Below are positions 2,892-46,778 of a DNA stretch of 64,000 nucleotides, one piece after another. The notes beneath the pieces are model-generated. The model searched no databases and had not been told where the DNA came from. It saw only the letters and a program-made list of their open reading frames with translations. The stretch covers positions 1-64,000 of the forward strand of contig JAAYVE010000053.1 of the NCBI GenBank assembly GCA_012517315.1. The letters run 5' to 3'. Position 1 is the first letter of the stretch, and each line of letters opens with the position of its first letter. The position numbers and the translations under genes were made by a program. The DNA is from Deltaproteobacteria bacterium (lineage in GTDB: Bacteria; Desulfobacterota; Syntrophobacteria; Syntrophobacterales; Syntrophobacteraceae).

Positions 2892-3410
2892 TCAGTTCTG
2901 TTCTCGAAAGGGCGACCCGATTTCCGTGGGGAGCCCCCTTTCCTGCCACACCGTCCAGCCGTTGACCAGGACTCGAGCGTTCCTGTATCCCCTCTCCAGC
3001 AGGGCCAGGGCTAGTTCCTTGCTCAGATTGCAGGTTTCTCCGTCGCAGTAGGTGATGATCATCGACTCGGGGGGGATCTCGGCCAAGAAGGTATCGAGGC
3101 CCTTTTCCAGTTCCTCCGGCGGAAGGTTGAGTGCCCCCTGGATGTGTCCTTCCGCGAATAGATCCGGGGAGCGGGCGTCAAGGATCACCGCGGTTTGCGA
3201 AAAGAAGAGGGCCTCTGCTTCCTCCGGCGAGACGGCCAAGGTCTCCCCGTCGCTCAACTGCAGTCTCGCCTCGGTGGACCAGTCTGCAACGAGGGGCAGC
3301 CGTCCCGGGCGCAGTTGATTGACACCTAAGGCAAGGACCACCGCCATCAAGAGGATTGACCCGGCCTGCCAGATTGCCTTGACCATCCTGTGTTCCCCGT
3401 ACTTCACCAT
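2892..3410 (-). CDS. membrane-anchored rhodanese-like protein
   Basis: About 172 residues. The chosen start (MVKYGEHR) has a GAGGGA ribosome site upstream; an earlier ATG at 3491 would overlap the preceding gene. One N-terminal membrane helix (AGSILLMAVVLALGV) is followed by a single rhodanese domain with the active-site loop CDGETC and the AVILDARSPDLFAEGHIQGA signature. Such proteins hold a persulfide sulfur or act in sulfur or arsenate-linked redox chemistry on the outer face of the membrane. It sits between a corrinoid-protein-like Fe-S gene and the GlpC-like gene in the arsenic operon. The substrate is unknown. Confidence 0.8.
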   Translation of the reverse strand: MVKYGEHRMVKAIWQAGSILLMAVVLALGVNQLRPGRLPLVADWSTEARLQLSDGETLAVSPEEAEALFFSQTAVILDARSPDLFAEGHIQGALNLPPEELEKGLDTFLAEIPPESMIITYCDGETCNLSKELALALLERGYRNARVLVNGWTVWQERGLPTEIGSPFREQN

Positions 3411-3474
3411 GGAACGCCGCTTCCCTCTTTCATGGAGTTCGCAGAAAACCTCACATCTCCTCATGCTTCCCGTA

Positions 3475-4107
3475 TTATCGAAAGGCATCACGATTTCCCA
3501 AAAGGAAAAGGGGAACGAGAAAGCCCGAAACAGGCCCCACCATGACTTCCCAGCCCGTCATCTGCCGAATGGCGTTCCGTTCTTTTTCCGCCAGTCCAGG
3601 AATGATCATCACGTTCCGCCCGGCCTTCGCCTCCACGGCGTTCTCCTTGAGCCCCTTCCAGACTTCCGTCGCCTTGAACATGCGCTCGTGAACCGCGTTG
3701 TCCACGGAATATCCATGGGTGAAAACAGGTAGAAGAAATGCCGAAGTCGAGGTCTCCTGGAGGATTCCTTTCATGATTCGCACCGTTTCCCGGAAGTTGC
3801 TGGTGATGAGAACGGGGGAACCGGTCACGGGATTGTTGATTTCGAGAAGGGTGCAGGGTTCCTGCTCCATCATGACGTTGTATGGAATGGGGTCCTTATC
3901 CAGGGCAAGAATGGATGCGAGGGTGCCGACCCACTCTTGGTCCAGTTCGGGGCATTTGGAAGGGACCGTCCGTCCCGTGATCAGCGCTTCTGCGAAGGCA
4001 AGGCAGTCTGCAAAGCCGCATTGGCCGCAATCGGTCTCGGGCAGGTACTGGGAGAGTTCCTCGGCGTCAGGTGGGTAGATCTGAGCCATTTCCTGTTCAA
4101 CTGCCAT
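3475..4107 (-). CDS. Fe-S protein, acetyl-CoA synthase gamma subunit-like
   Basis: About 210 residues. I chose the ATG at 4107 because AAAGGAGG lies two to three bases upstream; an alternative ATG at 4152 overlaps the arsC stop as ATGA. An N-terminal [4Fe-4S] domain (DCGQCGFADCLAFAEALITG, then KCPEL) matches the N-terminus of the corrinoid/Fe-S protein large subunit (AcsC/CdhE). The C-terminal half (ITSNFRETVRIMKGI ... VMVGPVSGFLVPLFL) resembles the C-terminal part of the same family. The corrinoid-binding core is missing, so it is not a working AcsC. It recurs here in an arsenic context together with a second Fe-S protein at 13964-14485. I infer an electron-transfer or methyl-transfer accessory role; the actual role is unknown. 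Confidence 0.7.
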   Translation of the reverse strand: MAVEQEMAQIYPPDAEELSQYLPETDCGQCGFADCLAFAEALITGRTVPSKCPELDQEWVGTLASILALDKDPIPYNVMMEQEPCTLLEINNPVTGSPVLITSNFRETVRIMKGILQETSTSAFLLPVFTHGYSVDNAVHERMFKATEVWKGLKENAVEAKAGRNVMIIPGLAEKERNAIRQMTGWEVMVGPVSGFLVPLFLLGNRDAFR

Positions 4108-4148
4108 TTCTCCTCCTTTCTCTTGATGCGGCGTCGGGCCAAGAACGC

Positions 4149-4634
4149 TCATCGGCCTTCGCGCTCACCTGTCAACGCTTGGGGGAGACGCTCCACAAAA
4201 GCCCTGATCGCGTCGCGCACCCGGCGATAAGGAGCCATGGCTTCCTCGTCGGTCTTGGCGTCCGCCGCCAACTTGGGAGGGTCATCGAATCCCACGTGCA
4301 GAACGCGGGTCCTGGCGGGAAAGACCGGGCACGACTTCTGGGCGTTGCCGCACAGCGTGATGACATAGTCGAACTCCATCTCGTCGAGGGTGTCCACATG
4401 CTTGGACACCTGCCCGGAGATGTCGGCCCCCGCTTCCGCCATGGCTCGAACAGCCCTGGGATCCACACCCTGGGGGTCCACTCCGGCTGATCGGGCCTCG
4501 ATGATCTCCCCTTTCAGTTTCCGCGTCCATCCCTCCGCCATCTGGCTGCGGCAGGCGTTCCCCGTGCAAAGATAAAGGATTTTCAGCTTCTCAGGTTGTT
4601 CAGCCAATGTCCTGTCCCACTCTCCTTGGCTCAT
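4149..4634 (-). CDS. arsC: arsenate reductase, thioredoxin-coupled
   Basis: 161 residues, low-molecular-weight phosphatase fold. The P-loop CTGNACRS (Cys23, Cys28, Arg29) carries the nucleophile, and LCGNAQKSCP supplies the two resolving cysteines of the thioredoxin-type ArsC family. It reduces arsenate to arsenite in the cytoplasm and is recycled by thioredoxin; candidate partners are the small thioredoxins at 14970-15203 and 16987-17508. It has about 16 residues more at the N-terminus than usual, so translation may start later. Its stop overlaps the possible upstream start of the next gene. Confidence 0.93.
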   Translation of the reverse strand: MSQGEWDRTLAEQPEKLKILYLCTGNACRSQMAEGWTRKLKGEIIEARSAGVDPQGVDPRAVRAMAEAGADISGQVSKHVDTLDEMEFDYVITLCGNAQKSCPVFPARTRVLHVGFDDPPKLAADAKTDEEAMAPYRRVRDAIRAFVERLPQALTGEREGR

Positions 4635-4881: not shown

Positions 4882-5235
4882 TCATGCGGCTGTTTTCCTG
4901 CAGATGTTTTCACGGTTGATGGATGGGAGGGTTTCCATTAGGGATACAATCGCGGGATCCGTTTGGAGCCAGTGCCTGAGGTTCCCGAGGAGGGTTGCGG
5001 CATACGGGGAGTCGGTCCCGTCCGCAAGGCTGTAATTGACCCAGAGACCGCACTTGCGGGAGATGACCAGTCCTGCATCCTCAAGGATTTTGAGATGTTT
5101 GGAGATTGTGGGCTGAGCCAAGCCAAGGGCCGCCTGGATTTCGCACACGCAAAGGGTCTTGAACTGGAGGGCCTTGAGGATTTTGACCCGTGTCGGGTCG
5201 GAAAGGGCTTTCATCACGCGGGTGAAGTCCTTCAT
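4882..5235 (-). CDS. arsR: ArsR family repressor (copy 1)
   Basis: 117 residues from the start MKDFTRVM; an earlier ATG at 5268 is possible. A winged helix-turn-helix (LGLAQPTISKHLKILEDAGL) and the metalloid-sensing CVCEIQ motif (equivalent to ELCVCDL) identify an arsenite-responsive ArsR. The chosen start places it 45 bases from the shared sequence at 5280, almost the same as for the paralog at 17545-17889 (46 bases), which supports both starts. The two copies share most residues along their length. It should repress the arsC cluster and perhaps arsM until arsenite binds. Confidence 0.92.
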   Translation of the reverse strand: MKDFTRVMKALSDPTRVKILKALQFKTLCVCEIQAALGLAQPTISKHLKILEDAGLVISRKCGLWVNYSLADGTDSPYAATLLGNLRHWLQTDPAIVSLMETLPSINRENICRKTAA

Positions 5236-5279
5236 GGCTTCGCGTCCTTCAGGTTCCATGGTGAACACCTGGATGCAGG

Positions 5280-5525: not shown

Positions 5526-6356
5526 TCATGTTGATTTTACCGCAGAAACCTTGATGCTGGCAACCGATGAGGAGAGATCTTCGGCCATCGTCTCTGAAAG
5601 GCTCAAAGGAGCGTTTGCTTCCGCTGCACCATTTTCCGCGACCGTGAGATATACGGGGAAGACGTTCTCTTCCAGAACCTGGATCTCCCGGAAACCTGCC
5701 TTCTCCACTGCGCCAAGGTATTCCTCCTTCATGACGGCCCCTGCGACGCAGCCCACATAAGCCTCAGCAGACCGTCGAACGGCTTCAGGCAGTTCCTTCA
5801 AGAGAACCAGATCGGACACCATGAGGCGACCACCGGGTTTCAATACGCGATGAGCTTCCCGGAAAACCTGCTCCTTGTCAGGGGAGAGATTGATCACGCA
5901 GTTGGAGATCACAACATCCACCTCGTTTGCGTCAACCGGAATCTTTTCGATTTCCCCCAGACGAAACTCGACATTGTCGAAATGGCCCGCCTTGGCGTTC
6001 TGCCTGGCTTTTTCCAGCATTTCCGGGGTCATGTCCACCCCGATGACTTTTCCCTGAGCTCCTACCCTGGAGGCGGCGAGGAAGCAGTCAAAACCCGCCC
6101 CCGAGCCAAGGTCCAACACCACGTCCCCTTTTCTCAGAGAAACAAAGGCCAGGGGGTTGCCGCAACCCAGGCCGAGGTTTGCCCCTTCGGGCACGGCGGC
6201 CAGTTCTTCATGACTGTAGCCGATCTTCCTGCCGATCTCTTCCGCAGGGTCCGAACCTCGGCAGCAGCCACTGCCCGCCCCGCAACACGGCACATTTTGC
6301 AGGGCCACTTTGGCATAGCCTGACTGGAGGGTTTTCTTGATCTCTTCGCGATTCAT
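5526..6356 (-). CDS. arsM: arsenite S-adenosylmethionine methyltransferase
   Basis: 276 residues, the usual ArsM length. The SAM-binding motif LDLGSGAGFDCFLAA and the ArsM signature VISNCVINLSPDK are present. Conserved cysteines lie at NVPCC (24-25), GCCRG (32-33), in the SNC motif and in YVGCVAGAV, as needed for arsenite binding. It methylates arsenite to mono- and dimethyl forms in the cytoplasm. It lies directly after the remnant AbrB-type gene, whose ancestral stop probably overlapped this ATG, and before arsR on the same strand. Confidence 0.93.
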   Translation of the reverse strand: MNREEIKKTLQSGYAKVALQNVPCCGAGSGCCRGSDPAEEIGRKIGYSHEELAAVPEGANLGLGCGNPLAFVSLRKGDVVLDLGSGAGFDCFLAASRVGAQGKVIGVDMTPEMLEKARQNAKAGHFDNVEFRLGEIEKIPVDANEVDVVISNCVINLSPDKEQVFREAHRVLKPGGRLMVSDLVLLKELPEAVRRSAEAYVGCVAGAVMKEEYLGAVEKAGFREIQVLEENVFPVYLTVAENGAAEANAPLSLSETMAEDLSSSVASIKVSAVKST

Positions 6357-7114: not shown

Positions 7115-7300
7115 TCACCGGAGCGTCACTTTTCGCACCTCCGAATGGACGGGATAAACGTCACCGGGGCGTGGTTGATAGCTCACATTCACGGTCACGC
7201 TCACTTCCCCGGTTCCGCCCGCAACGGGGATCTCGAAGGTCTCCTCTTGTGGAGCGAAAGGCTGGATGCCGTTGTCTCTGAAGGGAAATCCCGCTCGGCA
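7115..7300 (-). pseudogene. possible multiheme cytochrome C-terminal remnant
   Basis: On the minus strand, FPFRDNGIQPFAPQEETFEI continues into PVAGGTGEVSVTVNVSYQPR. This resembles the C-terminal beta-sandwich of large multiheme c-type cytochromes in Desulfobacterota (pattern DxRIPPFGxxEETYxFxIP...). Its upstream end runs into the start of the IS4-type transposase near 7290, as if the insertion had cut it. No heme motif survives. The identification is tentative. Confidence 0.3.
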
Positions 7301-8454
7301 TCTGGCAACGCTTGCCGGTCTGATCACGGGAATTGTCATGATCCAAAAGGTCCAACTTCCAAAACTCGCCGCCAGAATTCCCGACTCGGTGAAGGAGACA
7401 AGCACGGAAAAGCGACTCTACCGCTGGATCAAAAATGGGAGAATCTCTCACGAGACCCACTTCCTCCCCTCCATTCAGCCGCTGCTGTCGGCGGTGGCCA
7501 ACACTCCCCTTATGCTGGTGATCGATGGAAGCACTGTGGGTCGCAACTGCCTGGCCCTCATGGTGTGTCTTGTTTCCAAGCAGCGTGCACTTCCCATCGC
7601 CTGGACTGTGACCAAAGGCAAGAAGGGGCACATCCCCGAGCCAATGCACGTCCAGCTCGTCCAAGAGGTCCAGAAGCTCTTCCCGGAAAATGCCCGTGTC
7701 GTCCTTCTCGAGGACGGGGAATTCGACGGCACCAACCTTCGGACTACTCTCGCAAAAGCAGGCCGGCGCTACTTCTTGCGAACTTACAAGAGTCCCCTGC
7801 TCATTTGGCAAGGCCATGAGTTCTCCTTTAACGATGTCACGGATTGTGTCGCGCAAGGAGACCGCTTCTACAGACCCAATGCCTTATTCACTCGGAAGCG
7901 ATGTGAACCCATTCAGGCCACTACGTGGTGGCGGCAAGACTGCCAAGAGCCCATTCATCCGGTCGCCAATCTCTCTTCTATTGATGACGCCTGCCGGTAC
8001 TACACTCAACGGTTCAAAATTGAGACCTTCTTCTCCGACCAAAAGGGTCGCGGATTCCATTTTCACAAAAGCCACATCTCCGACCCCAAAAGGATCTCTC
8101 GGCTCCTGATCGCTGCCTGCCTGGCCTACCACTGGGTCGTGCACCTGGGAGTCCCTGCGATCAAAAATCAAAAAAGGATGCCATCGCTTCATTCATCGCA
8201 CGGAACGTTGTGACCTCAGCCTCTTTCAACTCGGTTTGCACCTCTTCAGTTACCTTCTCAAGATTGGACGCTGCGTTCCTGTGCCTCTCATGCTCATTGA
8301 GGAGGAAACTCCAAAAGTGTCCGGTGGAGAGACAAAGGCAGGAACCCGGTGCATGACCGCAGGAGATTCAAGACATCGGCGGAGGCAAACGGAAGGATTC
8401 GGGGGGCGATCCGTGGTCGTGTCCATATCGGCCTTCAGCCGAGATGTGATTTGA
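7266..8454 (+). pseudogene. IS4 family transposase, frameshifted
   Basis: The first frame (7266-8213) carries the N-terminal HLATLAGLITGIV and DLSSIDDACRYYTQRFKIE-like regions of IS4 transposases: the first Asp in VIDGSTVG, the second in VVLLEDGEFD and the Y-2-R-3-E signature as YTQRFKIE. The homologous tail (GCHRFIHRTERCDLSLFQLG) lies in another frame, so one extra A in the run at 8163-8167 breaks the gene. A minus-1 slip would not reach the tail frame, which argues against standard programmed frameshifting. The N-terminus also looks 20-30 residues short, with a cytochrome-like remnant at the junction. Terminal inverted repeats were not found by eye. The insertion sequence is probably dead. 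Confidence 0.8.
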
Positions 8455-8977: not shown

Positions 8978-10411
8978 CTAACTCTTGGAGGGAGTCTTCT
9001 TGAGCTCTCGGTCGATCAACGCCTTGAATCCCTCGAGGGAGGGAGCACCCGGATGGAACCTCCCATTGATGACGAATGTGGGTGTTGCGTTGACCCCCAA
9101 TTTCTTGGCCGTCTCGGCGGCTCTTGTGACTTCCTGTTCGAATTTGCCGCTCTCGAAGCAGGTATCGAAGCGCTCTGGGTTCAACCCCGTCTCTCTCGCC
9201 AAGAGTTTCAACTGTGCCACGTCGAGTTCCCGGTCGCTTCCGAAGAGAGCGTCCTGGTATTCCCAATACTTGCCCTGCTCTTCGGCGCATCGGGAGGCTT
9301 CCGCGGCCTTGCGCGCCCAACGGTGCATGCTGAGAGGAAAGTCCTTGAAAACCCAGCGGATCTTTCCCGCATATGCCTCCTTGACCGTCTTGATGGTGCC
9401 GTGGGTCCTTCGGCAGACGGGACATTCATAATCGGAGAATTCATAGACGGTGACAGGGGCATCGGCAGGTCCCCAGGAGGGGTCGCCGTCACCGCTCACC
9501 TCCATCAAGGGCAGTTCCGGTTTTTGAAGGGAAATGACCACATCGCCCTTGCCCGCGAAAGATAGGCTGGCCTGTGCCACCTTCTGATGGTACTTCTCCT
9601 GCGCAGCCGATGCCCGGACACTGGCCCACAGTTGCTCCATCGACCCTTTCCAGCCCGCCCATCTGCCCCGGTTGTCCTCGAAATGACGTTCAACCTCCTG
9701 GTCGCTCACCTCCACATCATTGGGACGGACCAACTCATCGACCAACTGCTGCACGGTGATGCCCCTGCGCCCGGCTTCATCCTCCAGCAGGATCTCGGCG
9801 ATCAAGTTGTCGAGGCGATGCTTCTTCTTGCGGTAAATCTGCTGCTCCAGTTCTCGGAGTTCCGTGGCAATGGGGAAAATCAACTCATTTTCGGTGATCA
9901 CACGCCCCTTGACCGTCGCGGCAACAGTAGGCTCTCCTTTGCCCCCGGGAGCAAGCGATGGGTTCTCATGCGGGATTCCGAGGGCGGCCAAAAGGCATAC
10001 CATGCTGCTCACCGCCATGGTTTGCCAGAGGAAACGCTTATCCAGGGAGGCGATCAGGATGAAGAGGACCACGATGAAGTTGATCAGGCAGAAAACGCAG
10101 CGCACTCCCATGGAAAACATGATCCACATGAGCGTGATTTCGATCCCGAAAGCGGCCGCCACCCATGCCGTCACGAGTTGTCGTCTGAAGAACAGCAGCG
10201 CCAACAGGGCGATGTAGAATGCAACCCCCCATGCCCAGATGGGAAAGCCCAAGAAGGTGAAGCGGGCCGTCTCCGTGCACCCCTTGAAAATCCCTCCGCA
10301 AATGGATGCAAGCCAGTTGACGTGCTCCGCCAATCCTGCCGCCACAGCGACGATCGTCCCAATGATGCTGAGAACGCCAATGATTTTGGTTCGAACGGGA
10401 CTCAGGAACAT
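8978..10411 (-). CDS. VKOR / PPIase-like linker / DsbA fusion
   Basis: 477 residues. Residues 1-150 form a vitamin K epoxide reductase domain with four to five membrane helices, a loop cysteine (KGCTE) and the quinone-side RCVFCLINF CxxC. Residues about 160-300 resemble the N-terminal chaperone part of SurA/peptidyl-prolyl isomerases (LIFPIATELRELEQQ). Residues about 305-470 are a DsbA-like thioredoxin domain with DYECPVCRRTH and cis-proline VNATPTFVING. The predicted role is disulfide formation in exported proteins, with electrons passed to quinone. The start ATG follows a GGGAGAACC sequence. It stands alone, about 290 bases from the DUF4405 gene. Confidence 0.9.
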   Translation of the reverse strand: MFLSPVRTKIIGVLSIIGTIVAVAAGLAEHVNWLASICGGIFKGCTETARFTFLGFPIWAWGVAFYIALLALLFFRRQLVTAWVAAAFGIEITLMWIMFSMGVRCVFCLINFIVVLFILIASLDKRFLWQTMAVSSMVCLLAALGIPHENPSLAPGGKGEPTVAATVKGRVITENELIFPIATELRELEQQIYRKKKHRLDNLIAEILLEDEAGRRGITVQQLVDELVRPNDVEVSDQEVERHFEDNRGRWAGWKGSMEQLWASVRASAAQEKYHQKVAQASLSFAGKGDVVISLQKPELPLMEVSGDGDPSWGPADAPVTVYEFSDYECPVCRRTHGTIKTVKEAYAGKIRWVFKDFPLSMHRWARKAAEASRCAEEQGKYWEYQDALFGSDRELDVAQLKLLARETGLNPERFDTCFESGKFEQEVTRAAETAKKLGVNATPTFVINGRFHPGAPSLEGFKALIDRELKKTPSKS

Positions 10412-10705: not shown

Positions 10706-11050
10706 TCATAAGCGGACCATCGCCCACGCCAGGAGGAGCACCACCAGCCACGCACCGGAGAGGGTCCAAAGGGCCTTCTTCCAACGCTCACCAAAATAGG
10801 CCCTGGTGGTACCGACCACCCAGGACCAGTTGAGCCAGATGTGGAGGATCAGCAGCACGAGAAGGAAAAGGGACAGGTAAAGGTGAATGTCTCCCCAATC
10901 GTGCCGGTGGAGCCCCAGGAAGTACTTGGGCACGGCTGTTCCGCCTCCGAATGGAATGACGAAGGCGAGGAGCAGGCCGATAGCCGCGATGGAGCACAGG
11001 TCCACAAACAGTAGGGCATCGATGACAAACTTCCAGTCGTTCCTTTTCAT
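10706..11050 (-). CDS. DUF4405 membrane protein
   Basis: 114 residues with three predicted helices: FVIDALLFVDLCSIAAIGLL, YLSLFLLVLLILHIWLNWSW and LSGAWLVVLLLAWAMV. Histidines in HDWGDIHLYL and LILHIWLNW are placed as in b-type cytochrome-like DUF4405 proteins, so heme binding is possible. It is 40 bases downstream of the CDF-MauE gene on the same strand. Function is unknown; a quinone or electron-transfer role beside the thiol-redox genes is inference. Confidence 0.75.
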   Translation of the reverse strand: MKRNDWKFVIDALLFVDLCSIAAIGLLLAFVIPFGGGTAVPKYFLGLHRHDWGDIHLYLSLFLLVLLILHIWLNWSWVVGTTRAYFGERWKKALWTLSGAWLVVLLLAWAMVRL

Positions 11051-11090: not shown

Positions 11091-12599
11091 TCAGGCGGAG
11101 TGGGGCTTCAATGCGTGTGACGACCGGCCAGGGTCTCCGCCACTGCCGCCCATGATCTCCCTGTAGAACACGTAGGCGCCCATGAGGAGAAAGATGCCGT
11201 CCCGGAGAAGGTACCAGGTTGTTGCGGGGCTGCCCTCTGTGCTGGTGGTGAAGCACCCGCAATGGATATCCAGCCCACGGGCCACGTTGTAAACGGCGGC
11301 ACCGCAAAAAGCGATCAGGAAAGCATTGGTCAAGGTAAGAGCACCAGGGAGCCACCATCCTGCGATGAGCAGGACCCCCAGGACAACCTCCAACCACGGA
11401 AGGACAAGGGCGGTGATATTGATGAGGGAATCGGGCAGGATCTGGTAGTTGAATACAGCCTGGGCGAAAGCGGCAGGGTGTAGGATTTTGTCCACGCTTG
11501 CCGCAAGAAAGATGACGCCGAGAGTCACCCTCACCCAGAAATGAAGGGGTTTCCTGAGCAACGATGCCCTCCGGCGTTTTTCCGCGAGCGTGCCGGGCTC
11601 CGTGCCCACGGCGCCTCCTGTGCTGCACGAGACCCGGCACAACAGACTTCCCTCTCCGCAGGGCTTCGTTTCGAACTGAAGGACCGGGTGGTCGATGCCG
11701 AAACGATGGCGCAACTGGTGGCGGATTCTTTCGGCGAGAGCGTCGATGTCGCTCAGTTGTTGGTCTGGGACCACGACGTGGCATGAGAAGGCGACGCTTG
11801 AGGAGCACAGGTTCCACGCGTGGAGGTAGTGAACCCCGCTGATGCCCGGAATCTGTTCCAGGAATGTCTTGATTCGCGCGATATCGAGGCCGCTCGGTGT
11901 CGCGTTCATGAGAATCCGTGTGGCCTCTTTGAGGATCGCCCAGCAGTTCTTCAGGATGAACAGGGCGATGAGCACGGACAGAATGGGATCCAGCCAGTAC
12001 CACGGCTTGAACATGAGAACGAGGCCGTTCAGGACGACAACCACCGAGGTGAGCAGGTCGCCCAGCATGTGGAGGAAGGCCCCCCGCACGTTGAGATTGT
12101 GGCCGGCGTCCCGGTGAAGGAGGAGGGCTGAAAGGCCGTTTCCGAGAATGCCGACGCTTCCGATGAGCACCACCAGACCTCCGGACACGGCCTCGGTATG
12201 CCGCAGCCGATCCATGGCTTCATAAACGATATAGGCCGCGGCCCCCACCAGGAGGGCCACGTTCACGATGGCTGCCAGGATCTCGGCCCGCCGGTACCCG
12301 AAGGTGTTCTCGGCCGATGCGCCTTTCCTGCCGATGCGGTTTGCAAGGTAAGCAATGAGGACCGCCGTAAAATCACTGAAATTGTGAGCTGCATCGGAAA
12401 TGAGGGCCATGCTGCGGGCCTGGATGCCTCCCGCGATCTGCACGGCCGGAATGAGTAGATTCAGGCCGAGGGTCATGAGGAGCCTCGCACCCGTGGAATC
12501 ATTCACATTCCCATGGTGATGCGCATGCCCACGAGCCTGTCCCCCCTGAGACACTTCGCTGCAACCGCAGTTGAAAAAGTCACCGTTTGCGCGTTCCAC
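11091..12599 (-). CDS. CDF cation efflux protein fused to MauE/DoxX domain
   Basis: 502 residues. Residues 1-325 are a cation diffusion facilitator: a His-rich N-terminus (HAHHHGNVND), six helices, the metal-site motifs SDAAHNFSDF and HMLGDLLTS, and a cytoplasmic C-terminal domain. Residues about 340-490 are a separate four-helix MauE/DoxX-like domain (VRVTLGVIFLAASVDKILHP ... HCGCFTTSTEGSP) whose CGC cysteines are typical of the DoxX-like proteins that partner with rhodanese or thiol proteins. No stop or shift lies between the halves. The fusion suggests zinc or cadmium export coupled to a membrane redox unit. The order of the halves and the intact frame make this a genuine fusion in this sequence. 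Confidence 0.88.
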   Translation of the reverse strand: MERANGDFFNCGCSEVSQGGQARGHAHHHGNVNDSTGARLLMTLGLNLLIPAVQIAGGIQARSMALISDAAHNFSDFTAVLIAYLANRIGRKGASAENTFGYRRAEILAAIVNVALLVGAAAYIVYEAMDRLRHTEAVSGGLVVLIGSVGILGNGLSALLLHRDAGHNLNVRGAFLHMLGDLLTSVVVVLNGLVLMFKPWYWLDPILSVLIALFILKNCWAILKEATRILMNATPSGLDIARIKTFLEQIPGISGVHYLHAWNLCSSSVAFSCHVVVPDQQLSDIDALAERIRHQLRHRFGIDHPVLQFETKPCGEGSLLCRVSCSTGGAVGTEPGTLAEKRRRASLLRKPLHFWVRVTLGVIFLAASVDKILHPAAFAQAVFNYQILPDSLINITALVLPWLEVVLGVLLIAGWWLPGALTLTNAFLIAFCGAAVYNVARGLDIHCGCFTTSTEGSPATTWYLLRDGIFLLMGAYVFYREIMGGSGGDPGRSSHALKPHSA

Positions 12600-12824: not shown

Positions 12825-13916
12825 TCACTGCAGAGGCAAACGTGACGGGCCCGCCCCACAGGTTGCGCAAACCGTTGGTGTGAAAAACCTGAGCTTGATC
12901 CGTAGGGCGACGTTCACGAGGCTGATGAGGACGGGGACCTCCACCAAGGGGCCGATGACCGCTGCAAAGGCCTGACCCGAATTCACCCCGAAGACGGCCA
13001 CGGCCACCGCGATGGCCAGTTCGAAATTGTTGGATGCTGCCGTAAAGCTGAGTGTAGTGGCCTGTCCGTAGGTGGCGTTGAATTTCTTGGACATGTAAAA
13101 GGAAATGAAGAACATGACCAAGAAGTAGATGCAAAGGGGAACAGCGACCCGAAGGACGTCCAGGGGGAGCTGGACGATGTACTCGCCCTTGAGAGAAAAC
13201 ATGACCAGGATGGTGAACAGAAGGGCAATGAGAGTGACGGGGCTGATCCTGGGAATGAATCGGGTTTCGTACCACTGCCGTCCCTTGGTCTTTAGCCCGA
13301 TGAGGCGAGAGAGCATCCCGGCGATGAAGGGGATTCCGAGGTAAATGAAGACACTCTCGGCGATCTGCCCCATGGAGATGTCCACTACGGCCCCGGTCAT
13401 TCCGATCCAGCGGGGGACCATCGTGATGAACACATAGGCGTACACGGAGAAAAAGAGCACCTGGAAAATGGAATTGAAGGCGACAAGACCCGCGCAATAC
13501 TCTGTGTCACCTCCCGCAAGGTCGTTCCAGACGATGACCATGGCGATGCAGCGGGCAAGACCGATGAGGATGAGACCCACCATATAATCATGATACCCTG
13601 AAAGAAAGGTGACGGCGAGGAGGAACATGAGGATCGGCCCCACGACCCAGTTCTGGACGAGGGAAAGGAGGAGCACCCGGACGTTGCGGAAGACCTGCCC
13701 TAATTGCTCATACTTCACCTTGGCCAGGGGAGGGTACATCATGAGGATGAGGCCGACGGCGATGGGAATGTTGGTCGTCTCCACCTGAAAGAGGTTGATG
13801 ATCCCCTTGATTTGGGGAAAGAAATAACCGCCGCTCACCCCGATGGCCATGGCGAGAAAGATCCATAGGGTCAAATAGCGGTCCAGAAACGAAAGGCGCT
13901 TGCTCACTGATTCCAT
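12825..13916 (-). CDS. acr3: arsenite efflux permease ACR3
   Basis: 363 residues with about ten helices. The ACR3 family regions are clear: [32 protein letters not shown] with the essential cysteine, and [16 protein letters not shown] followed by [15 protein letters not shown]. It exports arsenite using the membrane potential. It begins the third position of the second arsenic cluster and follows the Fe-S gene by about 50 bases. The short C-terminal tail carries CATCG, which is unusual for ACR3 and may bind metalloid. Confidence 0.95.
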
Positions 13917-13963: not shown

Positions 13964-14485
13964 TCAATCGAACCGAAACTGGCTGAGATACGCGTCGAGC
14001 TTCTTTCTGTTTTCTTCGCTGAGGGGCGGACAGCCCTCAGGGCCCCTGCCTCCCTCGGCCACCTGAGTGGCGAACACCATGCAGGTCGGTTGCCCGCACT
14101 CTTTGCAGTTGGTCTTGGGGAGGAGCTTCAGGATTTCGATCACCCTCGGCTTGGGAGCGCCTTCGAAACTCGGCTGGATCTCGGCGCGGCGCTCCCACGC
14201 ACTGTTGATCTCCCCTTTGAGCCATTCCAGAATCTTGTCCCCTTCGGTTTCATCCTTGAGAGCGTTGACGCAGATCTTGTCGGGATGGACAGCGATGAGT
14301 TTCCCCTGGACTTTTAACGACACCGAAGGGGGTTCCCTCGTGTATTGAAATCCTCCCAGCACCGCGTTGAGGTACGGGAGCACCTCGGCAATGTCCTGGT
14401 CGAGGTGGGCGATGCAGTGGAGGGATTCCGCCTCCCGCCTGCACTCAGGCCTCACGATTTCCTTCCGGTACCCTTGGAGCAACAT
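13964..14485 (-). CDS. Fe-S cluster protein, (4Fe-4S) domain
   Basis: 173 residues. The N-terminal two thirds have no motif I can name (DKICVNALKDETEGDKILEW). The C-terminal part is a [4Fe-4S] domain of the type at the N-terminus of the corrinoid/Fe-S protein: LLPKTNCKECGQPTCMVFAT then GCPPL. It sits between acr3 and a DGC protein, mirroring the Fe-S protein in the first arsenic cluster (3475-4107), where the domain is at the opposite end. I infer an electron-transfer role in arsenic or sulfur redox; direct evidence is lacking. Confidence 0.75.
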   Translation of the reverse strand: MLLQGYRKEIVRPECRREAESLHCIAHLDQDIAEVLPYLNAVLGGFQYTREPPSVSLKVQGKLIAVHPDKICVNALKDETEGDKILEWLKGEINSAWERRAEIQPSFEGAPKPRVIEILKLLPKTNCKECGQPTCMVFATQVAEGGRGPEGCPPLSEENRKKLDAYLSQFRFD

Positions 14486-14557: not shown

Positions 14558-14935
14558 TCATGGATTTCCGCAGGCCGACCTGACAGCCTCCTTGACCCGG
14601 TCGATTTCGTCCCTTTTGAGGTCGAAATCCTTGTTCTTCTCAATCTCCAGGTCCGTCAGGACGAGATAATTCCTCAAGGGTACCTGGGCCTGTTCCAGGC
14701 ACGCCTTGGCGCAACCCACGGAGCATCCGTCGATGACCACCATTTCTTCAACGTCCCTGGCCGACTGCACAAATCCGCTCAACTGTCCGCCGATTCCTGC
14801 CAGACAAAACATCTTCCCGAACCCTTCCCGGGTCAGTTCCACCGCCGCCTGGTTGGAGAGCTGTCCCACGTTGGAGGCTCCCGAGCAGGCCAGGATCATG
14901 ATGTTTCTACCCGGAGTACAGCACTCCTCAGCCAT
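14558..14935 (-). CDS. putative zinc-binding DGC domain protein
   Basis: 125 residues with the DGC-family signatures ILACSGASNVGQLSNQAA and VVIDGCSVGCAKACLEQA, whose cysteines are predicted to bind zinc or another metal. The family is common next to thioredoxin-like proteins and ArsP-type permeases. It lies between the Fe-S gene and the small thioredoxin gene, and a GGAGGAAA ribosome site precedes the ATG. Biochemical role is not known. Confidence 0.8.
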   Translation of the reverse strand: MAEECCTPGRNIMILACSGASNVGQLSNQAAVELTREGFGKMFCLAGIGGQLSGFVQSARDVEEMVVIDGCSVGCAKACLEQAQVPLRNYLVLTDLEIEKNKDFDLKRDEIDRVKEAVRSACGNP

Positions 14936-15388: not shown

Positions 15389-16771
15389 CTACGGAAAAAA
15401 GTGACCGAAAACCATCCCGCAGACCGTGGACATGACCACCACCAGGGTCACGTACACGACCGTTTTCTGAGTTCCCATGACGCTTCGGATGACCAGCATG
15501 CTGGGGAGCGACAGGGCCGGGCCTGCGAGCAGGAGGGCCAGCGCCGGGCCGCTGCCCATCCCCGAACCGATGAGCCCTTGCAGGATGGGGACTTCCGTCA
15601 GGGTCGCGAAGTACATGAAGGCCCCAACGACGGCGGAAAAAAAATTGGCGGCAAGGGAGTTGCCACCCACCAAGGCGCTCACCCAGTGGGAAGGGATGAT
15701 CCCCTCCGTGCCCGGCTGTCCCAGGAGCAGTCCCGCCGCCAGGATTCCGCCGATGAGAAGGGGCGTGATCTGCTTCGTGAACCCCCAGGTGGACAAAAAC
15801 CACACCTCGGCCTCCCCCCGTGTGGTGGTGAGGAGGACGGTCACGGCGACGATCCCCGCCGAAAAGGCGATGAGAGGTTCGTGGGGGAAGCCGAACGCCA
15901 GGGCCGCCACAATGACTGCGGCGATGGCCACTTTAACGGCCTTCACCCGGAACCAGACGATGAATTCCACACCGAGCACCGCTGCGAAAGCCCCCGTCAG
16001 CCACCACTTGATGCTGTACACGGCGTTCCAGAAGCCCACGGGATCGGACGGCTTCCCCCACGTGGCGGAGATGAGGAGGCCGACCATGGTGGCAAAGAAG
16101 ACGACGTTCACCCACAGCGGCCGATCCACCTCTGAGGCGGGAAGATGCAGGGCCGTCTGCGCTTTTTCCTGTTCTTCCTTGAGGAAGAAAAAGTGCATGA
16201 GTAGTCCGATGAGGATGCTGAAGAGGACCGCCCCCACCGCCCTGGCGATCCCCAGGGGTAGGCCGAGAATGCGTGCGGTGAGCACGATAGCCAGGATGTT
16301 GATGGCTGGCCCGGAGTACAGGAACGCGATGGCGGGCCCCAATCCTGCCCCCCGCTTCCAGATCCCTGCGAAGAGCGGCAGCACCGTGCAGGAACAGACC
16401 GCCAGGATGCTCCCGGAAACGGATGACACCCCGTAGGCCAGGACTTTGTTGGCCGCCGGTCCCAGGTACCGCATCACGGCGGCCTGCGAAATGAAGCAGG
16501 ATATGGCCCCCGCAATGAAGAACGCCGGGACCAGGCAAAGGAGCACATGCTCCCTGGCGTACCACTTGGCCAGGGCAAGGGATTCCAGTATGGCGTTGGT
16601 GAAACGCTTGCTCTCCAACGGGAGGTAAAATGCCAAGAGGAACAGCCCCACGATGACCGTCATGGGGACCCAGATGGTTTTCCATTCGATCATGCTGGGT
16701 TGTCTTTCCTCTCGTTCTTCCACCACGTCCTCCTTTGCCAGTTCTTTCCTTGCGACACCAATGTGACTCAT
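15389..16771 (-). CDS. ArsP/DUF318-type permease
   Basis: About 460 residues from the start MSHIGVARKELA; an upstream ATG at 16828 is less likely. About ten to twelve membrane helices in two halves, with the family motifs VSGSILAVCSCTVLPLFAGI and FLYSGPAINILAIVL, and in the second half ATLTEVPILQGLIGSGMGSG. The paired cysteines in CSC are the metalloid-binding candidates. Members such as ArsP export methylarsenite or roxarsone-type compounds; others have unknown substrates. Export of the products of ArsM would fit the context, but this is inference. Confidence 0.85.
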   Translation of the reverse strand: MSHIGVARKELAKEDVVEEREERQPSMIEWKTIWVPMTVIVGLFLLAFYLPLESKRFTNAILESLALAKWYAREHVLLCLVPAFFIAGAISCFISQAAVMRYLGPAANKVLAYGVSSVSGSILAVCSCTVLPLFAGIWKRGAGLGPAIAFLYSGPAINILAIVLTARILGLPLGIARAVGAVLFSILIGLLMHFFFLKEEQEKAQTALHLPASEVDRPLWVNVVFFATMVGLLISATWGKPSDPVGFWNAVYSIKWWLTGAFAAVLGVEFIVWFRVKAVKVAIAAVIVAALAFGFPHEPLIAFSAGIVAVTVLLTTTRGEAEVWFLSTWGFTKQITPLLIGGILAAGLLLGQPGTEGIIPSHWVSALVGGNSLAANFFSAVVGAFMYFATLTEVPILQGLIGSGMGSGPALALLLAGPALSLPSMLVIRSVMGTQKTVVYVTLVVVMSTVCGMVFGHFFP

Positions 16772-16986
16772 GACAGACTCCCTGTTGAATGGAACAAGAG
16801 ACAAGACCCGGCAAACCCCGAGGTTCAAGCCCGGTCTTCACACATGGAAAAACTTAGTTTTCTTCTCCTCCACTCCAGCCCAATGGGATGGCTCTGGTAC
16901 GCTGCGTGGACGCGACTCCGGATCCGCGATCATGGGGCCGTCCGCGGGAGCGGGCACTTACCTCACCACGGCGCCATGCCGATCCC

Positions 16987-17508
16987 TTAACCCTTCCCAG
17001 TGGCGGCCGCTGCCGAACCCGCCGCCAAGAGCCATGCCCGGATCTTGTCCCTGGGCGGCACCCTGCCCACATCCACCACTTTGCCGTTGATGACCAGCGC
17101 CGGTGACCCCATCACGTTGTAAGAAACGATGGCGTTGATGTCCGTCACGTGTTCCACGGTGGCGGGCATCTCCAGTTCCGTCAAGACCTCCATGACGATT
17201 CGGGTCAGGCTGTGGCACTGGGCGCATCCCGTCCCCAGGACCTTGACTTCCAGTTGCCCCGAAGCCTCCTCGGCATATGGCTCCCCCAAAAACTTGCGGA
17301 ATTCCCGCACGAAAGCCCTTCCATACTCTTCCCTGGCGCTTCGGGGGATGTAGTTTTCCTTTTCGAGGCGCTCAAGGAGGGCGCTTCCAACCTCTTCGTC
17401 CGACTTGTTCTTGTGGGTGGACGCCATGGCATCCATAGCGCTCCTCAGTCCCACGATGCTGATGGGAAATTGGCCCACCCGAATCTGCGTGATATCCTTC
17501 TCACCCAT
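16987..17508 (-). CDS. thioredoxin-fold protein with extra N-terminal domain
   Basis: 173 residues. Residues 1-90 form a helical domain (GQFPISIVGLRSAMDAMA ... ALLERLEKENYIP) of a type found in arsenic and thiol clusters of anaerobes. Residues about 90-160 are an MTH895-like thioredoxin with GTGCAQCHSLTRIV and VMGSPALVINGKV. It follows arsR copy 2 by 36 bases and precedes the permease. The N-terminal region may bind a partner protein; role unknown. Confidence 0.8.
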   Translation of the reverse strand: MGEKDITQIRVGQFPISIVGLRSAMDAMASTHKNKSDEEVGSALLERLEKENYIPRSAREEYGRAFVREFRKFLGEPYAEEASGQLEVKVLGTGCAQCHSLTRIVMEVLTELEMPATVEHVTDINAIVSYNVMGSPALVINGKVVDVGRVPPRDKIRAWLLAAGSAAAATGKG

Positions 17509-17544: not shown

Positions 17545-17889
17545 TCACTTTCTGCAGTTCCTCTCCCGGTTGATGGATGGCAGGACACCCACAAGTGCGA
17601 CGATTTCCGGGTCGTTCTGGAGCCAGTGCTTGAGGTTTCCGATGAGGGCGGCCGCGTAAGGGCTTTCCACCCCGTCGGCAAGGCTGTAGTTCATCCACAA
17701 ACCGCACTTGCGGGAAACGACAAGACCTGCCTCCTCCAGAACCCTGAGATGGTTGGAGATGGTGGGCTGGGCCAGGCCGATAGCCGCCTGAATTTCGCAG
17801 ACGCAGAGCGTTCTCACCTGCAGGGCCTTGATGATCTTAACCCTCGTGGCATCTGAAAGGGCTTTCATGACGCGGATGAACTCTTTCAT
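17545..17889 (-). CDS. arsR: ArsR family repressor (copy 2)
   Basis: 114 residues from MKEFIRVM; an ATG three codons earlier (17898) is possible. It is a close paralog of the repressor at 4882-5235, with CVCEIQ and LGLAQPTISNHLRVLEEAGL-like helix-turn-helix (here IGLAQ). It is the first gene of the 17.9-12.8 kb arsenic operon and probably represses its own promoter at 17929-17957. The paralogs could cross-regulate both clusters. Confidence 0.92.
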   Translation of the reverse strand: MKEFIRVMKALSDATRVKIIKALQVRTLCVCEIQAAIGLAQPTISNHLRVLEEAGLVVSRKCGLWMNYSLADGVESPYAAALIGNLKHWLQNDPEIVALVGVLPSINRERNCRK

Positions 17890-17898
17890 GACCACCAT

Positions 17899-44995: not shown

Positions 44996-45915
44996 TGCCT
45001 TGCCGCGACCGAGCTGAGGAGATATGGGTTTTGTTTCGTGCTTCAGAAAAGTCTGAAAGCTGGATTGAATGGGGTCTGCTGATCGCCACGTGCATTTCCG
45101 CCGTGGCGATCTTTGCAATTCTGGCCTTGCTTGTCGCTTTCTGTATGCCTCTCTTCACCTTGGGAAGGATCGGAGAGGTCCTCTCTTTCCATTGGCAGCC
45201 CACAGGCGGATATTTCGGGATCCTGCCCATGTGCGCCGGTTCACTGGCCCTGTCACTCTTGGCCCTCTCAATGGCATTTCCGGCAGCCATGGGAATCTGT
45301 ACCCTCCTTCACGTTCTCGCCAGGGGATTCTTCGCCCGTTTTCTTCTCTCCCTGGTCCGTTTCATGACCGCCATTCCCACTGTGGTCTACGGGTTCGTCT
45401 CGGTCTTTCTGCTCGTTCCACGAATGCGCGAGTGGCTGGGGGCGGGAACGGGCTTTTCCCTGCTGACTGCTGCACTGACATTGAGCCTGCTCATCCTGCC
45501 CACCATCGTGCTGGTCCTTCATGCCAGGTTGGAGCAGATCGATCCTGTCCTTCGACTGGCGTCCGAGGCGTTGGGATTGACTCCGATCCAGCAGATGCGG
45601 CATGTTCTTTTTCCGGTGGCATCCCGTGGGATCGTCGTTGCCGCCGTTCTTGGTATGGGACGCGCTGTCGGCGACACCTTGATCTCCCTGATGGTTGCCG
45701 GCAACGCCCCTCAGTTTCCGTCGTCCCATCACCATTCCATCTGTACACTCACCGCTCACGTTGCCCTGGTTGTCGCGACCGACAGCCACAGCATGGCCTA
45801 CCAGTCCCTTTTTGTAGCAGGGCTGGGTCTATTTCTCGCCACCGGGTTGATCACCCTGTTCATCCGGAAATCAGGGCGGGGAGGCAGGGAGGTGCGCCGT
45901 GAAAAGGCTTTCTGA
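44995..45915 (+). CDS. pstC: phosphate ABC transporter permease PstC
   Basis: 306 residues with six helices; the permease loop GLTPIQQMRHVLFPVASRGI and the PstC pattern FMTAIPTVVYGFVSVFLLVP are present. It is intact although pstS and pstA beside it are broken. Start ATG overlaps the pstS stop; a GTG one codon earlier is possible. Confidence 0.9.
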   Translation: MPCRDRAEEIWVLFRASEKSESWIEWGLLIATCISAVAIFAILALLVAFCMPLFTLGRIGEVLSFHWQPTGGYFGILPMCAGSLALSLLALSMAFPAAMGICTLLHVLARGFFARFLLSLVRFMTAIPTVVYGFVSVFLLVPRMREWLGAGTGFSLLTAALTLSLLILPTIVLVLHARLEQIDPVLRLASEALGLTPIQQMRHVLFPVASRGIVVAAVLGMGRAVGDTLISLMVAGNAPQFPSSHHHSICTLTAHVALVVATDSHSMAYQSLFVAGLGLFLATGLITLFIRKSGRGGREVRREKAF

Positions 45916-46778
45916 GCGGGCCGCGACAGGTGTGGCCTGGCTCTCCGGCGGGGGATTGGTGCTGGCTTTGGCGGTGGTGATCGGTTTTCTTATCCTCCGT
46001 GGATATGAGAACCTGAATCTGGCGCTTTTTTTTGGGGACACTCCGTGGAAGGCGGCGATCAGGGGGGGATAAACCGGTTTTCGGAGGCATCTGGCCAGCC
46101 CTCATGGGCACCTTTTACCTGGTCGTGTTGTCGTCTGCCATGGCAATTCCCATTGGAATCGCGAGCGGGATCTATCTCGCGGAGTATGCGTCCCGTCGCC
46201 TGAGGTCATTCCTCGGATTCTTTGTGGACGTCCTCGCGGGAACACCATCCATTGTCATGGGGCTATTCGGGTTCACCGCAATCCTCTTTCTTAGAAAGAC
46301 CCTGCTCCCGGCAGCCCAGACCTGCCTCCTCCTTGCGGCCGCCTGCATCGCTTTGCTGGTGTTGCCCTATGTGATCCTCATCACCGAGACGTCCATTGGA
46401 GCCATACCCGAACCGCTTCGCCTGCTGGGGACCAGTGTCGGTTTCACCAGGTGGCGGAATCTCCGCAGTGTGCTGCTTCCCCTCGCCAGCCGGGGGATGC
46501 TGAGCGGAGCCATTCTGGCTGTTGGGCGCGCCTCGGAGGATACTGCGGTCATTCTCCTCACGGGTGTCGTTGCCCATGCCGGTGTCCCTGGGAGTATGTT
46601 CGACAAATTCGAAGCCCTGCCTTTCCGCATCTACTATCTGGCAGCCGAATACCGGAATCCCGGGGAACTGGACCAGGGATTCGCAACATCCCTTGTCCTG
46701 TTGGGCATATCGGGAGCCCTTTTTCCCACGGCCGTTGCCCTCCAGAAGAGCGCGGAGATGCGATGGAAAAAACGGTAG
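45899..46778 (+). pseudogene. pstA: phosphate permease PstA, one-base frameshift
   Basis: 292 codons if repaired. GTG start overlaps pstC. The first frame (VKRLSERAATGVAWLSGGGL, first helix) runs to a TAA at 46070-46072. One extra G in the G7 run at 46062-46068 causes this; with six G the frame reads IRGDKPVFGGIWPALMGTFY and stays open to 46778, with AGTPSIVMGLFGFTAILFLR and the EAA loop SVGFTRWRNLRSVLLPLASR. A second start inside the gene could give a protein lacking the first helix, so partial function is possible. Confidence 0.87.

Follow-up and report, generated by a model that had tools for sequence, protein, structure and literature searches.

The 64,000-nt stretch of DNA analysed here (the window) comes from a Deltaproteobacteria bacterium (GCA_012517315.1, contig JAAYVE010000053.1, positions 1 to 64,000 of the forward strand). 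On its minus strand, at 11091..12599, a stop-free open reading frame with a GTG start at 12599 encodes a protein of 502 amino acids in which a cation diffusion facilitator (CDF) is joined to a MauE domain, as assigned from the reading frame, Pfam and NCBIfam profiles and full-length relatives. The Pfam matches were Cation_efflux at residues 43–231 (E 3.5e-42), ZT_dimer at 235–310 (1.5e-14) and MauE at 352–479 (2.1e-27). The CDF half, 11667..12503 (-), consists of six transmembrane helices (residues 33–231) followed by a cytoplasmic ZT_dimer domain (235–311), and it passed the cut-offs of PF01545 (144.9 against 26.6 bits) and of the NCBIfam CDF superfamily TIGR01297 (256.5 against 82.35 bits). 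The nearest NCBIfam family was ZitB, yet the NF002923 cut-off was missed (209.4 against 408 bits). The N-terminus is rich in histidine, and the HDHD site is made up of H72 and D76 on TM2 and H177 and D181 on TM5, all of which are invariant across 16 fused proteins. The MauE half, 11145..11564 (-), has four transmembrane helices and passed PF07291 (96.4 against 27 bits), while narrowly missing the cut-off of DoxX PF07681 (23.5 against 23.6 bits). Its CGCF motif (residues 447–450, C447-G-C449-F) is invariant across the same 16 fused proteins, as are the surrounding MauE residues and an RD pair. The complete CDF and the four-helix MauE domain with a CGC motif described in the original prediction were both confirmed by these data.

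The two halves are joined by a linker of residues 312–345, 11565..11666 (-), which opens with a conserved cysteine tail (C314, C321 and C325, in the pattern CxxxxxxCxxxC) and then becomes variable, of low model confidence and positively charged up to the first MauE helix. Because the unfused relatives of the CDF carry the same cysteine tail, it is a trait of this CDF subfamily rather than a feature of the fusion, and a role as a fusion-specific coupling element was ruled out.

The fusion lies within a co-directional cluster on the minus strand that begins with an ArsR/SmtB regulator (17545..17898) and an ArsE/redox-disulfide-2 type thioredoxin-like protein (16987..17508), both identified by Pfam and NCBIfam. 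These are followed by Pfam matches to an ArsP_1-type permease (15389..16828), a DGC domain protein (14558..14935) and an Fe-S cluster domain protein (13964..14485), and by an ACR3 arsenite exporter (12825..13916; 458.9 against 282.8 bits) that is the next gene upstream of the fusion. The gene 40 nt downstream, 10706..11050 (-), encodes a DUF4405 membrane protein by Pfam; a DUF4405 gene is also found downstream of MauE in several Syntrophobacteraceae, and L031, L032 and L034 show this order. Its pattern of histidines suggests a resemblance to a small cytochrome b, and the protein may link MauE to quinone. Beyond it, 8978..10411 (-) encodes a membrane protein with a VKOR-like N-terminus, so called from its cysteine motif only and with no Pfam VKOR match, and a DsbA-type thioredoxin domain; L023 and L024 likewise keep this gene on the downstream side of the fusion. 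Further minus-strand genes were assigned by profile match to ArsM (5526-6356), a second ArsR (4882-5268) and an ArsC-type phosphatase-fold reductase (4149-4634). A DDE transposase gene, 7266-8213 (+), lies on the opposite strand inside the arsenic cluster, between the DsbA-type gene and arsM. The frame at 3475-4152 (-) encodes a 225-residue protein with an Fe-S domain and a C-terminal CdhD/ACS gamma part, similar to an internally shortened relative of a corrinoid protein. No mau genes were found among the annotated neighbours of the fusion.

The ArsR, ArsP_1, ACR3, DGC, thioredoxin-like and DsbA-type genes around the fusion agree with the arsenic and disulfide-chemistry cluster that had been proposed originally. 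The description was incomplete, however, since it made no mention of a membrane-anchored rhodanese (Pfam Rhodanese) with a CDGETC loop, 2892..3491 (-), in the distal part of the cluster. This gene stands about 7.6 kb from the fusion, beyond the transposase gene, and is displaced rather than a direct neighbour.

In the AlphaFold model of the fusion, six CDF helices and a cytoplasmic alpha/beta domain were followed by a disordered region (about residues 313–340) and then by four MauE helices with one short extra helix. The pTM of the whole model was 0.46, so that it carries no prediction for the mutual placement of the halves. Foldseek searches of the PDB with the CDF half gave ZnT3 (E 1.2e-15), ZnT1 and YiiP as the best matches and phmmer gave ZnT8 at 5e-36, the closest solved relatives being zinc transporters. 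The MauE domain modelled alone had a pLDDT of 88.8; no relative was found in the PDB by sequence, and no significant match was obtained by Foldseek. A second look using VIA-align placed NACHO/TMEM35A first (Z 13.0, 2.6 Å over 119 residues; next unrelated row 9.5), a match between two helical bundles that is suggestive rather than conclusive. No kinship with VKOR is claimed, the VKOR rows (Z 6.5–7.4) falling within the helical-bundle background. The loop charges obey the positive-inside rule and the end of the linker ahead of MauE helix 1 is charged (EKRRRASLLRK), and on these charge counts the CGCF loop should be extracytoplasmic, on the opposite side of the membrane from the C-terminal domain of the CDF.

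The NACHO match raises the question of whether MauE is a folding factor, either forming or protecting disulfides or persulfides in an extracytoplasmic client encoded by the operon or giving a NACHO-like aid to CDF assembly. Such a role would accord with the MauE of the mau cluster, which is a maturation factor of methylamine dehydrogenase, and with a chaperone being the best structural match. A common fold does not show a common function, however, and the CDF has relatives without MauE while MauE occurs mostly without a CDF, and we consider this explanation very improbable.

Full-length relatives of the fusion were sought in sampled genomes of Desulfobacterota. The genome of the window encodes one CDF-MauE protein. 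At the family level full-length fusions were present in 3 of 26 genomes, one of which had two copies, and at the order level matches spanning both halves were obtained in 16 of 39 genomes; families f2 (8 genomes sampled) and f3 (5 genomes) had them without exception. A sample of 395 taken at phylum level brought in three further fusion-bearing families (f36, f60 and f91). In another class of the phylum such matches occurred in about 18 of 291 genomes, which contributed about 15 additional genomes with a full-length fusion, among them the single-contig genome G427. Among the named hosts are Desulfobacter vibrioformis DSM 8776 and Desulfoferrobacter suflitae DRH4, the latter with two copies. The full-length fusions found in these searches were 46–67% identical to the query, and dozens of other Desulfobacterota genomes carry the protein intact over its full length. 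Comparison with L095 gave dN values of 0.18 for the CDF half, 0.25 for the MauE half and 0.64 for the linker, with dS saturated; overall the linker ranged from about 0.64 to 0.90 and the domains from 0.18 to 0.43. Purifying selection acts on both halves, and the linker is free to drift.

The predicted single frame was upheld, its junction being open in many other genomes and the halves and linker retaining a coding signal, which rules out a frame error or a chimeric assembly. Since the full-length fusion is conserved in other genomes, chance and artefact are excluded, and the comparisons show a real and conserved fusion in sulfate-reducing bacteria and their relatives. Carriage by mobile elements was also rejected: no relative of the query is encoded on any viral contig, and plasmid records all fell short of 80% coverage of the query, their matches being to the CDF only.

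Clustering of the genes around 40 relatives revealed that the gene of about 180 residues directly upstream of most fused genes encodes an N-terminally anchored rhodanese. A census was made of the best 80 MauE loci of the whole genome collection. Among these 80, an unfused MauE with a rhodanese immediately upstream was found at 45 loci, a separate CDF gene directly before MauE at 7, and the fusion at 18, of which 14 had the rhodanese immediately upstream and 2 were ended by a contig edge; most MauE genes of the group in this census have no CDF. A CDGxxC loop is present in most of the rhodaneses picked up by a motif search. The operon companions of MauE were ArsR, an ArsP-type permease, small thioredoxins, the DGC protein, a secreted thioredoxin and DsbD/CcdA, together with an Fe-S protein and ACR3, with ArsC and ArsM joining them at some loci.

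The CDF was placed between the rhodanese and MauE, as its own gene in some genomes and joined to MauE in others. In other genomes of the phylum, two loci (L179:712-2151 and L180:406-1881) each encode a single protein in which a transmembrane segment accompanies a cNMP-binding domain, a rhodanese and MauE, as confirmed by Pfam. In the genome of the window itself (contig C51 of G000, about 45292-46160; L002, L176) a second MauE gene lies right behind a cNMP-binding/rhodanese gene and is followed by a gene for a TlpA-like redoxin. Because these single proteins and this gene pair join the two, the rhodanese-MauE partnership exists independently of any CDF. The protein at L184:1142-2581 is similar in sequence to those of L179 and L180, and at L181:1125-2321 a MauE domain and a C-terminal thioredoxin-like domain are found in one protein. 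In the genomes of L002 and L026 the CDF and MauE halves are separate, and L026, L027, L029, L092 and L094 have close relatives of the CDF with no adjoining MauE. In family f3 (L082-L086) the CDF-MauE gene adjoins genes for NAD synthase, GlnB and GlnD. Since this fusion sits outside any ars operon, the fused state does not depend on arsenic.

The history of the fusion was followed in unrooted trees, in which gains and losses are indistinguishable. The CDF tree (47 rows) required 5–6 changes of the fused label, while the MauE tree, which is weakly supported and has 103 rows but few columns, required about 15, of which at least 5 were forced by well-supported branches. At L154:3085-3726, in a metagenome assembly, the His-rich start of a CDF runs in frame straight into the MauE linker, so that the CDF is gone and MauE is kept; comparison of the DNA with L113 gave a gap of about 0.94 kb with clean edges, and an in-frame loss of the CDF from a fused gene is likely. 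This alternation of split and fused states, the retention of MauE after loss of the CDF at L154, the absence of a CDF beside most MauE genes and the unconserved, disordered linker would all be expected of a neutral operon fusion, in which two independently working neighbours became one frame once a stop codon was lost and the tether adds only co-translation. We regard this as possible though rather doubtful, since the fused state goes deep and has stayed stable, being found in every sampled f2 and f3 genome, and f3 retains it away from the operon whose gene adjacency would explain it.

The reading that we favour, at somewhat better than even confidence, is that of a tethered two-module protein of the inner membrane, in which a Zn-type exporter is co-located with an extracytoplasmic rhodanese-MauE thiol/persulfide unit. 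The architecture, its conservation and the operon order were observed directly, and the topology was derived from charge and the model. Through its HDHD site and cytoplasmic dimerisation domain, the CDF half would move a divalent cation of the Zn type out of the cytoplasm (Zn2+ and probably Cd2+ as well), a substrate suggested by its relatives. The MauE half would be the membrane subunit of an extracytoplasmic thiol/persulfide redox unit with the anchored CDGxxC rhodanese as the other subunit, and homology and gene order point to a transfer of electrons or sulfur between the two. This unit could be recharged by the secreted thioredoxin and DsbD/CcdA of the operon or by the VKOR-like/DsbA protein, with a possible quinone link through the DUF4405 protein, and the operon as a whole would serve in arsenic and metal stress. 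The fusion may have arisen because the CDF gene sits between the rhodanese and MauE in the operon. The presumed benefit of the tether would be a fixed 1:1 supply and an exporter exit beside the CGC face, so that the exported soft metal would arrive at a place where sulfur ligands are repaired or provided.

The original prediction linked metal export to a membrane thiol or quinone unit through the fusion, and this is supported as a physical tether and not as an energetic coupling. In a directly coupled protein, the reading nearest to that prediction, the redox state of MauE would gate or drive the CDF, and export would answer the extracytoplasmic thiol or quinone state. The covalent tether is indeed kept across families, and the conserved cysteine tail between the halves could be read in the same way, but that tail is just as present in the unfused CDF relatives and the low pTM leaves the relative position of the halves without a prediction. 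Because the long and variable linker is disordered and split forms are frequent, a tether without coupling is favoured, and direct coupling is quite unlikely. A related proposal, in which the exit side is physically coupled to the persulfide/thiol unit and the rhodanese and MauE make, on site, a sulfur ligand that receives the exported metal, giving an export-and-sulfidise machine of sulfate reducers, also seems unlikely.

The architecture was unfamiliar to the original prediction, and the open-access literature on CDF with MauE, MauE with rhodanese and domain fusions of CDFs yielded no description of the fusion, which is weak evidence of absence. The parts belong to known families and their joining is, as far as this literature was searched, apparently undescribed. 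The fusion is nevertheless no singleton; it is common, recurrent and conserved within Desulfobacterota, although it was not found to have been characterised.

The fold, the His-rich N-terminus and the ZT_dimer domain of the fusion are common to the Zn-type CDFs (ZitB, YiiP/FieF, ZnT1/3/8), and its HDHD site is as in ZitB and the ZnTs, while the cysteine tail and the C-terminal MauE domain are additions and the ZitB cut-off is not reached. The Tso selenoprotein operon contains TsoB, a rhodanese/DsbD fusion with a UxxxxU motif (PMC13188914). The logic of rhodanese with DsbD is shared and this motif matches the spacing of CDGxxC, whereas Tso has no CDF and the TsoB cut-off (NF045694, 805 bits) was not reached by the rhodanese (36.0) or DsbD (52.3) found here. 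The redox genes assigned to arsenate reduction in one cited paper recur around the fusion, whereas neither the rhodanese-MauE nor the CDF-MauE combination is reported there. With the MauE/DoxX superfamily the fusion shares the four-helix membrane domain and the CGCF motif, here located behind a CDF and in arsenic operons with a rhodanese.

MauE/DoxX proteins are widespread and, to our knowledge, few of their partners have been identified. The census supplies members with a clear partner, an anchored CDGxxC rhodanese, in two unrelated settings. Fusion to the CDF would put the rhodanese-MauE unit where a metal exporter releases its substrate, which is a testable proposal for the extracytoplasmic handling of soft metals and arsenic by anaerobes. 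In mycobacteria ctpC encodes a metal-exporting ATPase. Mycobacterial DoxX was identified via its genetic interaction with ctpC, and in the DoxX-SseA-SodA membrane oxidoreductase complex this DoxX-type protein works with a rhodanese-type protein (PMC6930017, PMC7907618). That complex is encoded by separate genes with a distant DoxX family member and has no CDF, and no SodA was seen in the cluster of the window. The pairing of a DoxX-type protein with a rhodanese is shared, by gene order alone in the fusion group, and in mycobacteria DoxX, a rhodanese and a metal-export ATPase are connected in a similar way.
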